DNA of 5,952 nt from Paramuribaculum sp. Lineage in GTDB: Bacteria > Bacteroidota > Bacteroidia > Bacteroidales > Muribaculaceae. The translations under genes and the position numbers were made by a program. The stretch lies in NCBI GenBank assembly GCA_029058455.1, contig JAIDXU010000052.1, positions 1-5,952 of the forward strand, given 5' to 3'. The notes below the pieces were generated by a model. That model did no database searches and was not told where the DNA came from. It saw nothing but the letters and a program-made list of their open reading frames with translations. Below, one piece after another: positions 1,877 through 5,456 of the stretch; within the stretch, counting starts at the first letter, position 1, and each line of letters starts with the position of its first letter.

Positions 1877-1943
1877 TATTCAATATAATTTCGTAAATTT
1901 GCGATCGAAATCGGGAGAGCCTGATTTTGTAACATATTGAATA
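1877..1943. repeat. 10-bp perfect inverted repeat bracketing the -7 box
   Basis: TATTCAATAT (1877-1886) and ATATTGAATA (1934-1943) are exact reverse complements separated by 47 bases. Within the spacer lies a smaller inverted pair, ATTTCG (1888-1893) and CGAAAT (1906-1911), placed directly around the candidate -7 box, and the palindrome CGATCG (1902-1907) sits just after that box. Paired operator half-sites for a regulator acting on this promoter are one explanation. AT-rich sequence makes short repeats more likely by chance. Confidence 0.45.
1894..1901 (+). promoter_or_regulatory. Candidate Bacteroidota promoter (-7 box) for the rod RNA and nuclease operon
   Basis: TAAATTTG fits the Bacteroidota sigma-ABfr -7 consensus TAnnTTTG exactly. 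A TTG at 1868-1870 lies 23 bases upstream, a little further than the usual 19-21-base spacing to a -33 TTTG box, so the -33 element is weak. Initiation would fall near 1906-1909. The transcript would contain the whole predicted rod hairpin and then run into the gene at 2141. Confidence 0.5.
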
Positions 1944-1944
1944 A

Positions 1945-2111
1945 GCGAAGCGTTATGCTTTCTTGTTGACGGAAACCTGAGAAATTTCTACAAGCAGACA
2001 AGGATGGCATAATGGTTTCTCACGCATAGCGTGGGCTACCATTACTGCATCTGTCTGTAAGGTTTTCTCAGGACCTCCGTTAACGATGCACGAAGGCGGT
2101 CTGCGCTTTCG
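1945..2111 (+). ncRNA. Predicted rod-like structured RNA (unclassified) in the nuclease leader
   Basis: The two halves of this stretch pair almost end to end. From outside in: CGAAGCG 1946-1952 with 2104-2111 (one bulged T); a short TGC/GCA pair (1956-1958 with 2088-2090); GTTGACGGA 1965-1973 with 2076-2084 (one G-U); CCTGAGAAA 1976-1984 with 2064-2072 (perfect); CAGACA 1995-2000 with 2052-2057; GATG 2003-2006 with 2048-2051; TAATGGT 2010-2016 with 2038-2044; CTCACGC 2019-2025 with 2029-2035 around an ATA loop. A bubble at 1985-1994/2058-2063 breaks the rod. It begins about 40 bases after the candidate start site and ends 29 bases before the nuclease ATG. It could be a free small RNA (a 6S-like rod is one thought) or a 5' UTR regulator. 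It does not match any RNA family I can name. No reverse transcriptase is nearby, so a complete retron is not supported. Confidence 0.6.
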
Positions 2112-2140: not shown

Positions 2141-3004
2141 ATGACAAAAGTCCAAAGTTCAGAAATTTGTAGAATGGATCCCGCAGCAATGTTGGATCCA
2201 AATGATCCATTATTTAAAGCACTTGCCGACAATTCTCCCGAATGGTGGTCAAAACTCACAGCAGATCCTGAGATTTATGTCGAAATCAGAAAGGGCAATC
2301 TCATTCATGTATATTACTATGGTGCAAGAATTGCTGAAATTAAATATATTAGAGGAACTTATTCGGTGAAATGCCACGAAAAGTATGTAAATGGGAATCA
2401 AGCTACTGGTAGCAAATACATGTCGTGCATCAATCTTTTGGAAAATGATGTAACCCGACTTAAAGAGAATGCTCTTGAATTCTATGTTCAGGAATCAGAA
2501 GGTGAAGACACATCGGAAAAACGTATTCAAGGTAGATTGAGAATCGATAACCCACATAGGTATATAGATTCTGAGTTTGCACACGGATATGAGAAGGGAG
2601 AAAAGAAAAACCTAATTCGATTTGATTTGGTTGCTGTTGATGGAAATGAGTTGAAAGTAGAAGAACTAAAGAGAATAGGAGATTGTAGACTCAGAACTTC
2701 TGAGATGGAAATAAATCAACCCGAGGTTCTGACGCAGATGGAGCGGTACGCCACATTCATGGCTACCAATCAAGACGCCCTATGCGTTTACTATCAGACT
2801 CTTCTAAAGATAAAGAGGATGTTAGGATTACCTATGCCGATCGGCTATGACACTGAAAAGCCATTAACACTTGATCTAACTCCACTACTCTTGATCAAGA
2901 ATCTTTATGACTACTCTAAAATGGGTATGGAAAGGTATAAGAGGCTAAAAGATATACGAGATATTCTTGAAAAAAAAGAAATTAAATATTATATCCTGCC
3001 ATGA
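2141..3004 (+). CDS. Predicted PD-(D/E)XK nuclease-fold protein
   Basis: The 287-residue product carries a likely restriction-endonuclease-like core. E145 sits in YIDSEFAHGYE (141-151), D162 in the strand IRFDLVAVD (159-167) and E175-x-K177 in KVEELKR (172-178), followed by DCRLRTSE and a helix with Q199 (TQMERYATFM). This E...D...ExK...Q order is the metal-binding and catalytic pattern of PD-(D/E)XK nucleases. An N-terminal region (residues 32-82) with IRKGNLIHVYYYGARIAEI looks like a separate beta domain. The C-terminus is helical and lysine-rich. Nearly all arginines use AGA or AGG, unlike the following gene, which uses CGT/CGC often; this hints at a different origin. The stop overlaps the next start by four bases (ATGA, 3001-3004), so translation is probably coupled. 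The start at 2141 is the first ATG; 2174 is an alternative. Whether it cuts DNA or RNA cannot be seen. Confidence 0.65.
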   Translation: MTKVQSSEICRMDPAAMLDPNDPLFKALADNSPEWWSKLTADPEIYVEIRKGNLIHVYYYGARIAEIKYIRGTYSVKCHEKYVNGNQATGSKYMSCINLLENDVTRLKENALEFYVQESEGEDTSEKRIQGRLRIDNPHRYIDSEFAHGYEKGEKKNLIRFDLVAVDGNELKVEELKRIGDCRLRTSEMEINQPEVLTQMERYATFMATNQDALCVYYQTLLKIKRMLGLPMPIGYDTEKPLTLDLTPLLLIKNLYDYSKMGMERYKRLKDIRDILEKKEIKYYILP

Positions 3005-4260
3005 ATATCACAATCCATCGCGGCACCGATCAGATAGGTGGTTGCGTTACAGAATACGAATATAACGGTTGGCGTTTGTTTATTGATTACGGCGAGCAAT
3101 TACCCGGCACACCTGAAACATTCTTGCAGCTCGAAGGTCTTACTCATGGAGATTTGAGCAGAAGTGCATTGCTGATAACCCACTATCATGGAGATCATGT
3201 AGGTTGTATCGCTGAGTTACCGGAGGAGTTGCCAATTTTTATCGGCAATATTGCAAAGGAGATTCTTGAAGGTTTATCAGAACATTTGGGCCATATTGAC
3301 GATAAGCAGAAAGCATTGAGCGCACGTCTGAAATCCGTAAATACCTTCTTACCCGGTCACTTACTTGAGTGGGGGGAATTTCAAATTATGCCCATAATAA
3401 TGGATCACTCCGCTTTCGATGCATACGCTTTTCGCATTGAAGCGGGAGGTTTGAAAGTATTCCATACCGGAGATTTTCGTACGCATGGCTTCCGTAGCGG
3501 CAAACTGCCGAAGGTAGTTGAAAAATATGTCGGGAAGGTAGATTATATGGTTTGTGAGGCAACCAATGTGCGCCGTACTGCGAACAACATCAAACCGGAG
3601 CACGAGTTACAGAAAGAATTCAGACAAGCATTTACTGTGAATAAATATAATGCAGTATATCTATCCTCTACCAATATCGACCGTCTTTTTGGCCTATACC
3701 ATGCTGCGCTGCAAGCAGGCAGACCATTTTATGTTGACGGTTATCAGAAGAAGATAATGGATATTGTTGCCGGAAGAGATACTATATGGGGCAGATCGCG
3801 ACTTTATAGATACAAGGATGGTAGCGAACCCAAAGTCCTGCACAGAGATGAAGATAATTTTAGAGTCAATGGAAAGTTTGTTGATTTTCTTTCGGATCGA
3901 GGTTATGTGATTATTGCGCGTGCAGGCGAGAGATTCGACAACCTTCTTTCTCGGATACCATCCGATGGGAGAAGAACCTACTTCTCCATGTGGAACGGGT
4001 ATCTGGACAAGTCAAAGGCTGCTTATAGTCCTACTTTGGCAAAATCAGTTGGGAGCGACTATGTATCTTTACATACCAGCGGGCACTGTGATATGGATAG
4101 TCTTGAGAAATTAATTGAAATGCTCAGACCTAAGACGATTATTCCTATCCATACGGATTCCCCCAAGACGTTTGCTGAGTTATTCTCAGACAAGTGGCCT
4201 GTATTGATTATGAAAGAGGGGGATACTTTCCGTCCGATCAAACGCCCGAGCGTCTATTAG
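3001..4260 (+). CDS. RNase J-like beta-CASP metallo-beta-lactamase-fold hydrolase
   Basis: This 419-residue protein has the complete zinc-ligand set of the metallo-beta-lactamase superfamily: D29 in LFIDYGE, the HxHxDH signature H61-H63-D65-H66, H136 in MDHSAFDAYAF, and D158 in FHTGDFR. A beta-CASP-like insert follows (about 215-345), with YLSSTNIDRLFGLYHAA resembling motif A. The C-terminal part returns to the lactamase fold with SLHTSGH (356-362) and PKTIIPIH (377-384), as in RNase J and related RNA-processing enzymes. RNase J itself is about 555 residues, and this protein lacks its C-terminal domain. Known relatives cleave or trim RNA, and a few act on DNA. It overlaps the nuclease gene by four bases, so the two are probably made together; an 81-base gap follows. 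Family is firm; the substrate is not known. Confidence 0.85.
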   Translation: MNITIHRGTDQIGGCVTEYEYNGWRLFIDYGEQLPGTPETFLQLEGLTHGDLSRSALLITHYHGDHVGCIAELPEELPIFIGNIAKEILEGLSEHLGHIDDKQKALSARLKSVNTFLPGHLLEWGEFQIMPIIMDHSAFDAYAFRIEAGGLKVFHTGDFRTHGFRSGKLPKVVEKYVGKVDYMVCEATNVRRTANNIKPEHELQKEFRQAFTVNKYNAVYLSSTNIDRLFGLYHAALQAGRPFYVDGYQKKIMDIVAGRDTIWGRSRLYRYKDGSEPKVLHRDEDNFRVNGKFVDFLSDRGYVIIARAGERFDNLLSRIPSDGRRTYFSMWNGYLDKSKAAYSPTLAKSVGSDYVSLHTSGHCDMDSLEKLIEMLRPKTIIPIHTDSPKTFAELFSDKWPVLIMKEGDTFRPIKRPSVY

Positions 4261-4341: not shown

Positions 4342-4857
4342 ATGAATAATATCATGATTTTGGCAATCGGTGGGGCCGGTTGCAATATGGCGGAGACCAT
4401 TATGCGTGAAGCCTCCGCTCACTGGGTGCGTGAGGCGACATATATATTTGCTGACTCAGATCATACAAGATTGGCTGAATTGGCAAAAAGAGGCTATCAG
4501 ACCATCTCATTGAAAGATAATGAGAATCCATGCGAAGTTGTGAAGGGAGTTGAAAAACTCTATCTTCTGGCGGGTATGGGTGATAAAACCGGAAGTGAAT
4601 ATGTAAATATTGTCGCTGATTCCGCAAAAGCTACCGGCGTGCAAGATGTGTCTGCCATCGTGACAACACCTTTTTACTTCGAGGGAGAAGGAAAAATTGA
4701 AAAGGCAAAAGAAGCTATCGAAAGTTTGAACGGCGTAAAAACCACGGTTCTTCGTAATGATGACCTTCTGGAGAAGTATGCGGATATAAATTTCGCAACG
4801 GCATTTGATTATGCCGACATGTCGGTATTGAAAGCTATCGAGTCAGGAGAAGTCTGA
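4342..4857 (+). CDS. FtsZ-like protein consisting of the GTPase domain only, with altered glycine loop
   Basis: The 171 residues follow the N-terminal GTPase domain of FtsZ from end to end: ILAIGGAGCNMAET (6-19, FtsZ GGGGCN loop), IFADSDHTRL (35-44, FtsZ INTDAQAL), LLAGMGDKTGSEY (75-87), VTTPFYFEGEGK (107-118), VLRNDDLLEK (136-145, FtsZ PNDRLL) and INFATAFDYADMSVLKAI (149-166), which matches the start of helix H7. It stops there. The T7 loop, which FtsZ uses to trigger GTP hydrolysis in the neighbouring subunit, and the whole C-terminal domain are absent. The tubulin/FtsZ signature GGGTGTG is changed to GDKTGSE. FtsZ proteins are usually over 300 residues, so this is not the cell-division gene. 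The stop (TGA 4855-4857) shares a base with the next start, so this is a natural end rather than a frameshift. It may bind a nucleotide as a sensor or cap filaments; both are inference. Confidence 0.75.
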   Translation: MNNIMILAIGGAGCNMAETIMREASAHWVREATYIFADSDHTRLAELAKRGYQTISLKDNENPCEVVKGVEKLYLLAGMGDKTGSEYVNIVADSAKATGVQDVSAIVTTPFYFEGEGKIEKAKEAIESLNGVKTTVLRNDDLLEKYADINFATAFDYADMSVLKAIESGEV

Positions 4858-5456
4858 TGAGAATCCTCCATTTATCAGACACACATGGCTGTCACAATCA
4901 GTTCAGGAATCTTCCCGAAGCTGATGTCGCGGTTCATTCGGGAGATTTCACCATGAATGGGAGTCAGGAGGAGGCTCTTGACTTTATGAATTGGTTTTGC
5001 GACCTTCCTTACGACCATAAGATTTTCATCTGTGGCAATCACGATGAATGTCTTTATGGGGCAAATATTGAGGGATTGGATTCCAATGTGCATTACCTCT
5101 GTAACTCCGGAGTAGAAATAGACGGCGTAACCTTCTATGGAGTGCCGATGTTTATGAGAGATTGTATCAGTGAAAAACAATCGTTTAATTACCGCCAAAT
5201 ACCATCCAATACAAGCGTTCTCGTTACGCATACACCACCTTTTGGCATATTGGATTTCGATGATGGAATTAATTATGGTTCAGAAGAGTTATTGAGCATT
5301 GTCTCAGCAATAAATCCTCGTTTACATCTTTTCGGGCATATACACAGAGAACATGGTATATTAAAAAGAGCACAAACGATTTTCTCTAATGGAGCCATAT
5401 TGAGTGCTCGCTATTCAATCCTCCACACCCCCAACATATTAAACTTGCACTTATGA
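4857..5456 (+). CDS. Calcineurin-like metallophosphoesterase
   Basis: All metal-binding motifs of the metallophosphoesterase superfamily are present and in order in 199 residues: D8-x-H10 (LHLSDTHG), D30 (HSGDF), N61-H62 (CGNHDE), H125 (VTHTPP) and H161-x-H163 (FGHIH). The compact size and the THTPPFGILD segment place it closest to the MPPED1/MPPED2-like group of small phosphodiesterases. There is no signal peptide, so it is probably cytosolic. Substrates of such enzymes include cyclic nucleotides, nucleic acid ends and phosphodiesters; this one is not known. Its ATG shares one base with the stop of the FtsZ-like gene (TGATG at 4855-4859), a strong sign of coupled translation and a shared role. 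It ends at TGA 5454-5456, with a T8 run at 5482-5489 that may help end transcription. Confidence 0.85.
   Translation: MRILHLSDTHGCHNQFRNLPEADVAVHSGDFTMNGSQEEALDFMNWFCDLPYDHKIFICGNHDECLYGANIEGLDSNVHYLCNSGVEIDGVTFYGVPMFMRDCISEKQSFNYRQIPSNTSVLVTHTPPFGILDFDDGINYGSEELLSIVSAINPRLHLFGHIHREHGILKRAQTIFSNGAILSARYSILHTPNILNLHL

Follow-up and report, generated by a model that had tools for sequence, protein, structure and literature searches.

Upstream of a probable nuclease operon in Paramuribaculum sp., within the 5,952-nt stretch of DNA that was analysed as a whole (hereafter the window), a rod-like hairpin of about 167 nt with small bulges had been predicted, and the locus raises the question of what such a structure does in front of these genes. 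The original prediction considered a guide, inhibitor or substrate RNA for the nuclease, or a 6S-like small RNA, and named as checks the folding energy relative to shuffled sequences and compensatory changes in homologs. Here, both checks were carried out, and the element was followed through the genomes of its family, class and phylum.

A predicted plus-strand RNA rod behind a promoter-like box

The results showed that the predicted hairpin is real. Folded as plus-strand RNA, positions 1945–2111 reached a minimum free energy of −75.5 kcal/mol, as against a mean of −43.7 kcal/mol (sd 3.9) for dinucleotide shuffles (z = −8.08), and none of 200 shuffles folded as well. The minus strand of the same region folded less well (−60.2 kcal/mol, z = −5.63), which favours an RNA of the plus strand. 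The fold is a single long rod with small bulges and includes a perfect 9-bp helix between loops x and y (1976–1984:2064–2072, CCUGAGAAA:UUUCUCAGG). The Bacteroidota promoter box noticed upstream of the rod was also borne out: it reads TAAATTTG and lies 53 nt before the rod base, exactly the median distance in the RNA family described below. The features of the window are listed in Table 1.

Table 1. Predicted parts of the leader in the window and the two genes that follow it.
Feature	Position	Strand	Basis
Predicted promoter −7 box TAAATTTG, TAnnTTTG type of Bacteroidota	1894..1901	+	sequence; family box position
5′ hairpin of the leader (CGAAAUCGGG/CCUGAUUUUG)	1906..1929	+	prefix folds
Conserved ACAUAUU-like box, between 5′ hairpin and rod	1932..1938	+	copy listings, by eye
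Rod, whole element	1945..2111	+	fold z = −8.08; covariation in 91 copies
Segment S1 (GAAGCGUUAUGC); rod partner R2, two-arm partner R1	1947..1958	+	
Loop x (CCUGAGAAA); partner of loop y in both folds	1976..1984	+	
Segment R1 (GGCAUAAUGGUUUCUCACGC)	2006..2025	+	
Segment S2 (GCGUGGGCUACCAU)	2029..2042	+	
Loop y (UUUCUCAGG)	2064..2072	+	
y mini-hairpin flanks AGGU:ACCU, two-arm fold	2060-2063:2073-2076	+	
Segment R2, with a bulge (GGCGGUCU in the window) that serves as pseudoknot strand elsewhere in the family	2086..2110	+	
First gene after the leader, 287 aa, probable PD-(D/E)XK nuclease	2141..3004	+	
Second gene, 419 aa, RNase J-like metallo-beta-lactamase/RMMBL protein	3001..4260	+	

The earlier remark that the rod could not be matched to a named RNA family was likewise upheld, as a search of the window element against Rfam 15 gave no match at E values up to 5. 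Among 20 Bacteroidales loci searched at E values up to 1, no family reached its gathering cut-off on the element (the element of locus L017 had a sub-threshold antisense match to mir-3149, 27.3 bits against a cut-off of 100), and 20 further loci searched at E values up to 5 gave no match over the element.

Distribution of the RNA and its position before genes

With positions 1900–2140 as the query, blastn located the sequence three times in the own genome and matched 35 of 99 genomes. From 29 copies, a covariance model based on the rod was built, and it matched 304 of 396 genomes within the family of the window (six candidates scored per genome), covering 27 of 30 genera. It also matched 36 of 247 genomes in a class sample (E ≤ 1e-5) and, in a phylum sample, 23 of 395 (E ≤ 1e-3); the own genome is counted in all these figures. 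An exact 21-mer recovered at least 119 stretches in named records, and among the matches listed were Bacteroides, Phocaeicola, Prevotella, Parabacteroides, Alistipes, Barnesiella and Butyricimonas as well as Muribaculaceae. The 21-mer was also present in 12 viral contigs, and blastn matched five plasmid-collection records and one phage record. The collection of copies is biased in that the 21-mer lies in segment S1 and the covariance model is rod-based. Of 60 blastn places, only those with fetched loci were used, and 183 model matches were reduced to 150 distinct copies, leaving out matches below 95 bits or cut by contig ends. Three alignments were used: A1 (29 copies from L001–L032, without L005, L019, L030 and the second copy of L008, which looks degenerate), A2 (91 of the 150 copies, below 88% identity) and A4 (46 distant copies from other families of the class, without L081 and L085, which belong to the same order).

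The own genome carries four copies, each before an unrelated gene. These are the nuclease operon, a lipoprotein gene (L087) and two genes whose putative products were named by our own assignment a Crp-like protein (L064) and a PEGA-like secreted protein. Because unrelated genes follow the copies even in one genome, an RNA that serves the nuclease as guide, inhibitor or substrate was rejected. The earlier interpretation is partly supported: it holds as regards a structured RNA behind a promoter-like box, and falls as regards the tie to the nuclease operon.

Several copies deserve separate mention. L008 contains two of them (1512–1692 and 2961–3135) at a spacing of about 1.4 kb, and the 3′ half of the second is probably degenerate. 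Full-length copies occur in MAG records labelled Staphylococcus (L124), Lachnospiraceae (L171), Roseburia (L185) and Clostridia (L199), which are probably mislabelled or mis-binned Bacteroidota contigs. A 15.9-kb plasmid of Bacteroides finegoldii (L248, NZ_OY725957.1) bears an unannotated copy before same-strand hypothetical genes, and the blastn match ends 87 nt ahead of the next CDS.

The position of the RNA relative to genes was analysed in the 143 distinct copies with at least 500 nt downstream. A same-strand ORF of at least 40 aa starts within 300 nt in 140 of them, and a same-strand ATG lies 30–65 nt past the rod in 115 (median 46), while the other 28 have none at that distance, compared with 4 of 142 on the antisense side and 14 of 81 when the origin was moved by 1000 nt along the same strand. 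Upstream, a TAnnTTTG box was found within 90 nt in 129 of 135 copies (mean of 8.2 in mononucleotide shuffles), at a median of −53 from the rod base with quartiles of −53 and −51; 135 copies could be used for this box and 140 for the permutation test of the R2 bulge against downstream regions given below, the rest having no anchor motif or not enough flank. By eye, a 5′ hairpin similar to that of the window stands at the same place in most listed copies. The general layout, as sequence and covariation support it, is promoter box, 5′ hairpin, ACAUAUU, S1-x-R1-S2-y-R2, a hairpin termed H3 (in most copies) and AUG. The first proteins behind 143 of the 150 copies fall into 81 families, of which 59 are singletons, and 55 of the 143 are lipoprotein-like by a simple pattern. 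Searches of 81 representatives of these proteins against Pfam, PADLOC and PHROGs gave no common theme among the first 25 families listed for each, and among the Pfam matches listed no family occurred in more than two representatives. The results suggested a predicted leader RNA that likely sits downstream of a promoter-like box and ahead of the start codon in many unrelated genes of Bacteroidia. Judged by sequence, the rod of the window is one copy of this RNA, which is placed as a leader before many unrelated genes across Bacteroidia.

The pairings of two mutually exclusive folds are conserved

The segments of the RNA can pair in two ways. In the rod, S1 pairs with R2, x with y and R1 with S2, whereas in a two-arm fold S1 pairs with R1 (arm A) and S2 with R2 (arm B), and the apical hairpin loops x and y can kiss. 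The two folds have x:y in common and compete elsewhere. RNAalifold returned the two-arm fold and not the rod for 29 copies, and the rod core for 46 distant copies; since this disagreement makes RNAalifold alone misleading, the two folds were tested separately.

For the rod, 89.8% of cells were paired in the MAFFT alignment of 91 copies (83.1% in shuffles), 33 pairs had changes on both sides (23.8 in shuffles) and the covariation score was 0.288 (0.171 in shuffles), with 0 of 500 shuffles reaching any of these values; the compensatory changes in homologs are therefore present. Helix 5 (x:y) was paired in 97.2% of cells, with both-side changes in five of its nine pairs. For the two-arm fold, 95.4% of cells were paired in the MAFFT alignment of 29 copies. 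In the 91 copies, the paired cells (92.2% against 89.7% in shuffles), the covariation score (0.263 against 0.212) and the cells with both-side changes (98 against 34.7) were each matched by 0 of 500 shuffles, and the base of arm B, S2:R2, was paired in 96.9%. Two measures were weaker, namely the pairs with both-side changes (15 against 11.0, 5 of 500) and the pair types (45 against 41, 16 of 500). Slid along the alignment, the rod paired in at most 45.7% and the two-arm fold in at most 55.3% of cells. These controls favour the true positions, because A1 supplied both structures and its 29 copies form part of A2 (the kissing structure described below, derived from one row of A4, is favoured likewise).

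Then, the pairing of each segment with its own partner was compared with its pairing with the partners of other copies in 5000 permutations. In the 46 distant copies, own partners were better for all four pairs: S1:R1 (−18.17 against −13.11 kcal/mol), S2:R2 (−27.65 against −22.80), S1:R2 (−12.21 against −10.59) and R1:S2 (−28.80 against −20.94), each 0/5000. The non-partner controls S1:S2 and R1:R2 gave 4851/5000 and 1219/5000. The four partner pairs again gave 0/5000 in 90 of the 91 Bacteroidales copies, where the differences were smaller (1.0 to 4.6 kcal/mol) and the controls gave 3583/5000 (S1:S2) and 492/5000 (R1:R2). As the controls do not show the own-partner effect, relatedness alone is an unlikely source of it. 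The two copy sets are disjoint, and the distant set was collected with a rod-paired model; all 46 distant copies entered the partner test, 83 of 91 and 45 of 46 entered the bulge tests, and the rest had no anchor or flank.

A structure of mini-hairpins around y and x together with x:y scored 0.427 in the 46 distant copies, as against 0.154 in shuffles (0 of 500). In these copies, all four pairs of the y mini-hairpin had both-side changes, and one of the three pairs of the x mini-hairpin failed in 18 of 46; in the 91 Bacteroidales copies, the two G-C pairs of the y mini-hairpin are nearly invariant. Combined with x:y, the y mini-hairpin makes a kissing loop, a feature that the plain rod does not have. 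A hybrid four-way junction, made of the rod base, arm A, the tip hairpin and arm B, is compatible with most helices. The x/y loop pair comes in discrete versions of CCUGAGAAA, CGUAGGAAA, CCUAGGAAA and CUGGUA types, and the own genome contains copies with CCUGAGAAA and CCUAGGAAA loops.

A bulge with two competing partners

The bulge of R2, of GCAGUUCC or GUUGGCUC type, is free in the rod and is complementary to the loop of H3, the hairpin directly upstream of the ATG. Over 140 loci, the summed own pairing of bulge and H3 was 2166, above the maximum of 1970 in 10000 permutations. The duplex energies of the bulge with the downstream region gave 0/5000 in both copy sets, and those of the bulge with the tail of S2, its partner in arm B, gave 1/5000 and 0/5000, against 392/5000 and 4869/5000 for the control S2:downstream region. 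By a rule of our own, an H3-type pseudoknot is present in 115 of 140 copies and absent from 25; downstream regions dealt anew gave a mean of 83 and a maximum of 90, there being only two common types, and shuffled letters a mean of 47.5. These covariations suggest that the R2 bulge would pair with S2 in the two-arm fold or with the H3 loop in the rod, and thus has two competing candidate partners.

Proposed mechanism and alternatives

Energy prediction gave the rod as the minimum for 145 of the 150 Bacteroidales copies and for 43 of the 46 distant ones. Folded separately, the two halves are on average 11.9 kcal/mol less stable, with kissing left out of account. Each half alone beat its shuffles (mean z of −3.5 and −3.8 in 38 of 150 copies, values slightly flattered by a split point chosen on the real sequence only). 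Arm A was the best fold of 120–135-nt prefixes in all four copies folded, the window copy among them. Taken together, we consider that two exclusive folds have been conserved in a predicted leader which probably acts as a cis switch, with the rod dampening and the two-arm fold allowing translation. The element is thus likely a bistable switch for the gene behind it. During transcription, arm A would form first and arm B after it, and their loops would kiss; this form would later refold to the rod unless something held it. The rod would free the bulge, which would lock H3 beside the start codon and lower translation (OFF), whereas the two-arm kissing fold would hide the bulge, and the gene would be read (ON). 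To our knowledge, Bacteroidota make no strong use of Shine-Dalgarno sequences, so structure just upstream of the AUG should matter; the rod was assigned lower translation because the locked H3 adjoins the start codon. Given the energy advantage predicted for the rod, the two-arm fold may be no more than an intermediate of folding.

Other readings of the element were weighed as well. Since a T-rich tract (about 5–6 of 9 nt) follows R2, termination rather than translation could be controlled: with the same two folds, arm B, whose S2:R2 base is GC-rich, and the U-rich tract would form an intrinsic terminator and the rod an anti-terminator, so that read-through is regulated. Such an attenuator would agree with the T content after R2 (6.2 of 9 nt for the bulge type with 37 copies, 5.4 of 9 for that with 86) and with the steady pairing of S2:R2 in the 91 copies, but the U tracts are broken in many listed copies (e.g., CUUCGUG), and termination leaves the bulge:H3 pseudoknot and the usual ATG distance unexplained; we regard it as unlikely. 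A metabolite riboswitch for one ligand, in which the conserved internal loops around x and y form the pocket and binding picks the fold, appears doubtful. Its site would be typical, a 5′ leader between promoter box and ORF as judged by the box and the ATG distance; mutually exclusive folds are conserved by covariation, and invariant positions exist in both the 91-copy and the 46-copy sets. However, the 81 families and 59 singletons among the first proteins, and the Pfam matches listed for their representatives, point to no shared pathway downstream. A ligand would be a possible trigger of the two-fold switch with the same anatomy, and the chance given to it is not exclusive of that switch.

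The dominance of the rod as predicted minimum would also suit a constitutive element for translation or stability, in which the rod alone matters as 5′ protection and the two-arm complementarity is a transient path. We consider this improbable, given the covariation within S1:R1, S2:R2 and the y mini-hairpin and that of the bulge with both of its partners. An independent small RNA of the 6S or FopS kind, which merely lies upstream of genes, could have the same promoter box and discrete compact fold, but the start codon at 30–65 nt in most copies, the pseudoknot into the stretch just before it and the lack of an Rfam match at cut-off make it very unlikely; the 6S-like part of the original prediction is not sustained by the Rfam models of 6S RNA and 6S-Flavo, which matched neither the window nor 40 loci. 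Hardly credible is a palindrome that acts at the DNA level, as in a repeat of the attC-like, REP or MITE kind. The RNA is indeed multi-copy, palindromic and carried by plasmid-collection records and viral contigs, but the plus-strand energy bias, the near-constant distance of the promoter box and the pseudoknot covariation point to RNA.

Relation to known RNAs

In hok mRNA with its metastable hairpins and in the cspA thermoswitch leader, co-transcriptional hairpins rearrange to a long-range fold and gate translation. The predicted switch resembles them in its rearranging hairpins, but in the present case a single module stands before first genes of 81 families, and we know of no relation between these leaders and the present RNA. 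The Guanidine-II riboswitch is much smaller than the present leader. In the available text of PMC9094411, it has two 5′-leader hairpins with kissing loops that control genes, as is the case here; the present RNA differs in its loops of about 9 or 6 nt, the competing rod, the third partner H3 and the absence of a single downstream pathway.

FopS, as described in the available text of PMC11697453, is a multi-copy RNA of Bacteroides with a sigma-ABfr promoter, a single-stranded 5′ stretch and a terminator hairpin, which acts in trans and is deposited in Rfam. The present RNA shares with it the multiple copies in Bacteroides and a predicted promoter of the sigma-ABfr type, but it is a rod of about 165 nt before ORFs, has no Rfam match at cut-off and, with the rod as minimum in nearly all copies, lacks the single-stranded 5′ seed and terminator hairpin of that description. 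Flavo-1 and the other Weinberg 2010 motifs are, in the available parts of PMC2864571 and PMC9723704, likewise computationally found structured RNAs widespread in Bacteroidota; cmscan of the window and 40 loci gave no match to them, and Flavo-1 is reported on either strand (PMC9723704), whereas the present RNA is mostly strand-fixed before ORFs. HMP2_4205 (Fremin and Bhatt 2021), in the available text of PMC8040213, is a 132-bp palindromic candidate, mostly from Bacteroidetes, predicted as a Rho-independent terminator and commonly near TPR genes; the present RNA differs from this description, though the two may overlap. No description of the present RNA was found in the literature, in the available text of PMC11697453, PMC7366714, PMC10994844, PMC2864571, PMC9723704 and PMC8040213; it may nevertheless correspond to an unnamed entry in a published candidate list.

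More tentatively, and at rather less than even chances in our estimate, the leader may be a portable, class-wide four-segment exchange switch of Bacteroidia that isomerises between the rod and the kissing two-arm form, answers a global cell signal common to the class and defines one RNA-based regulon of otherwise unrelated accessory, surface and defence genes, which new genes, phages and plasmids would join by acquiring the module. If the switch as such is real, it could be one of the most common cis-regulatory RNAs in gut Bacteroidota, given its frequency in the family genomes, and would define a regulon invisible to protein-centred annotation and without a matching entry in Rfam 15. With four partner-swapping segments and a bulge for which two partners compete, its design would be a natural example, of unusual clarity, of evolution keeping two incompatible folds of one RNA. 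Laboratory strains of Bacteroides would allow a direct test of its trigger, and the module itself would offer a ready-made part for gene regulation.

The window copy and its neighbouring genes

By eye, all six elements (S1, R1, S2, R2, x and y) are retained in the window copy, in part by way of G-U pairs. The two folds both keep their pairings there, some of those in arm B being G-U, and the y mini-hairpin AGGU:ACCU is kept as well. By the pseudoknot rule, its bulge GGCGGUCU has no downstream partner, no H3 was found, and the ATG lies only 25 nt past the rod. In a related operon (L004), the CAGUUCA bulge keeps its UGAACUG partner; in another (L005), no bulge partner was seen downstream by eye. 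The missing bulge partner, the short ATG distance and the partner kept in L004 indicate that the window copy is, as judged from these comparisons, a derived member of the RNA family. Its read-out may be altered or lost, since no H3 was found there.

The first gene behind the leader (2141–3004) probably encodes a PD-(D/E)XK nuclease. D162, E175 and K177 are invariant in an alignment of 26 sequences, and by our placement they would form the D...ExK catalytic set; a search of the 287-aa protein against genome contigs found no relatives. The closest named homolog of the protein adjacent to the leader comes from Muribaculaceae, which makes this family the probable source of the window. The RNase J-like gene overlaps the nuclease gene by 4 nt. 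In the same strand run as these two genes, positions 4857–5456 encode a metallophosphoesterase with a strong PADLOC match (246 bits) to PDC-S10, a candidate defence family. Between the RNase J-like protein and the phosphoesterase lies, unusually, a short FtsZ-like protein of 171 aa (4342–4857), which aligns with no more than the middle of the FtsZ profile (94–200 of 353) and with the last part of the tubulin GTPase profile. At the other end of the window, a SLOG/DprA-like frame of 92 aa (140–418) is shorter than the related frame in L006 (116 aa) and may be a shortened gene.
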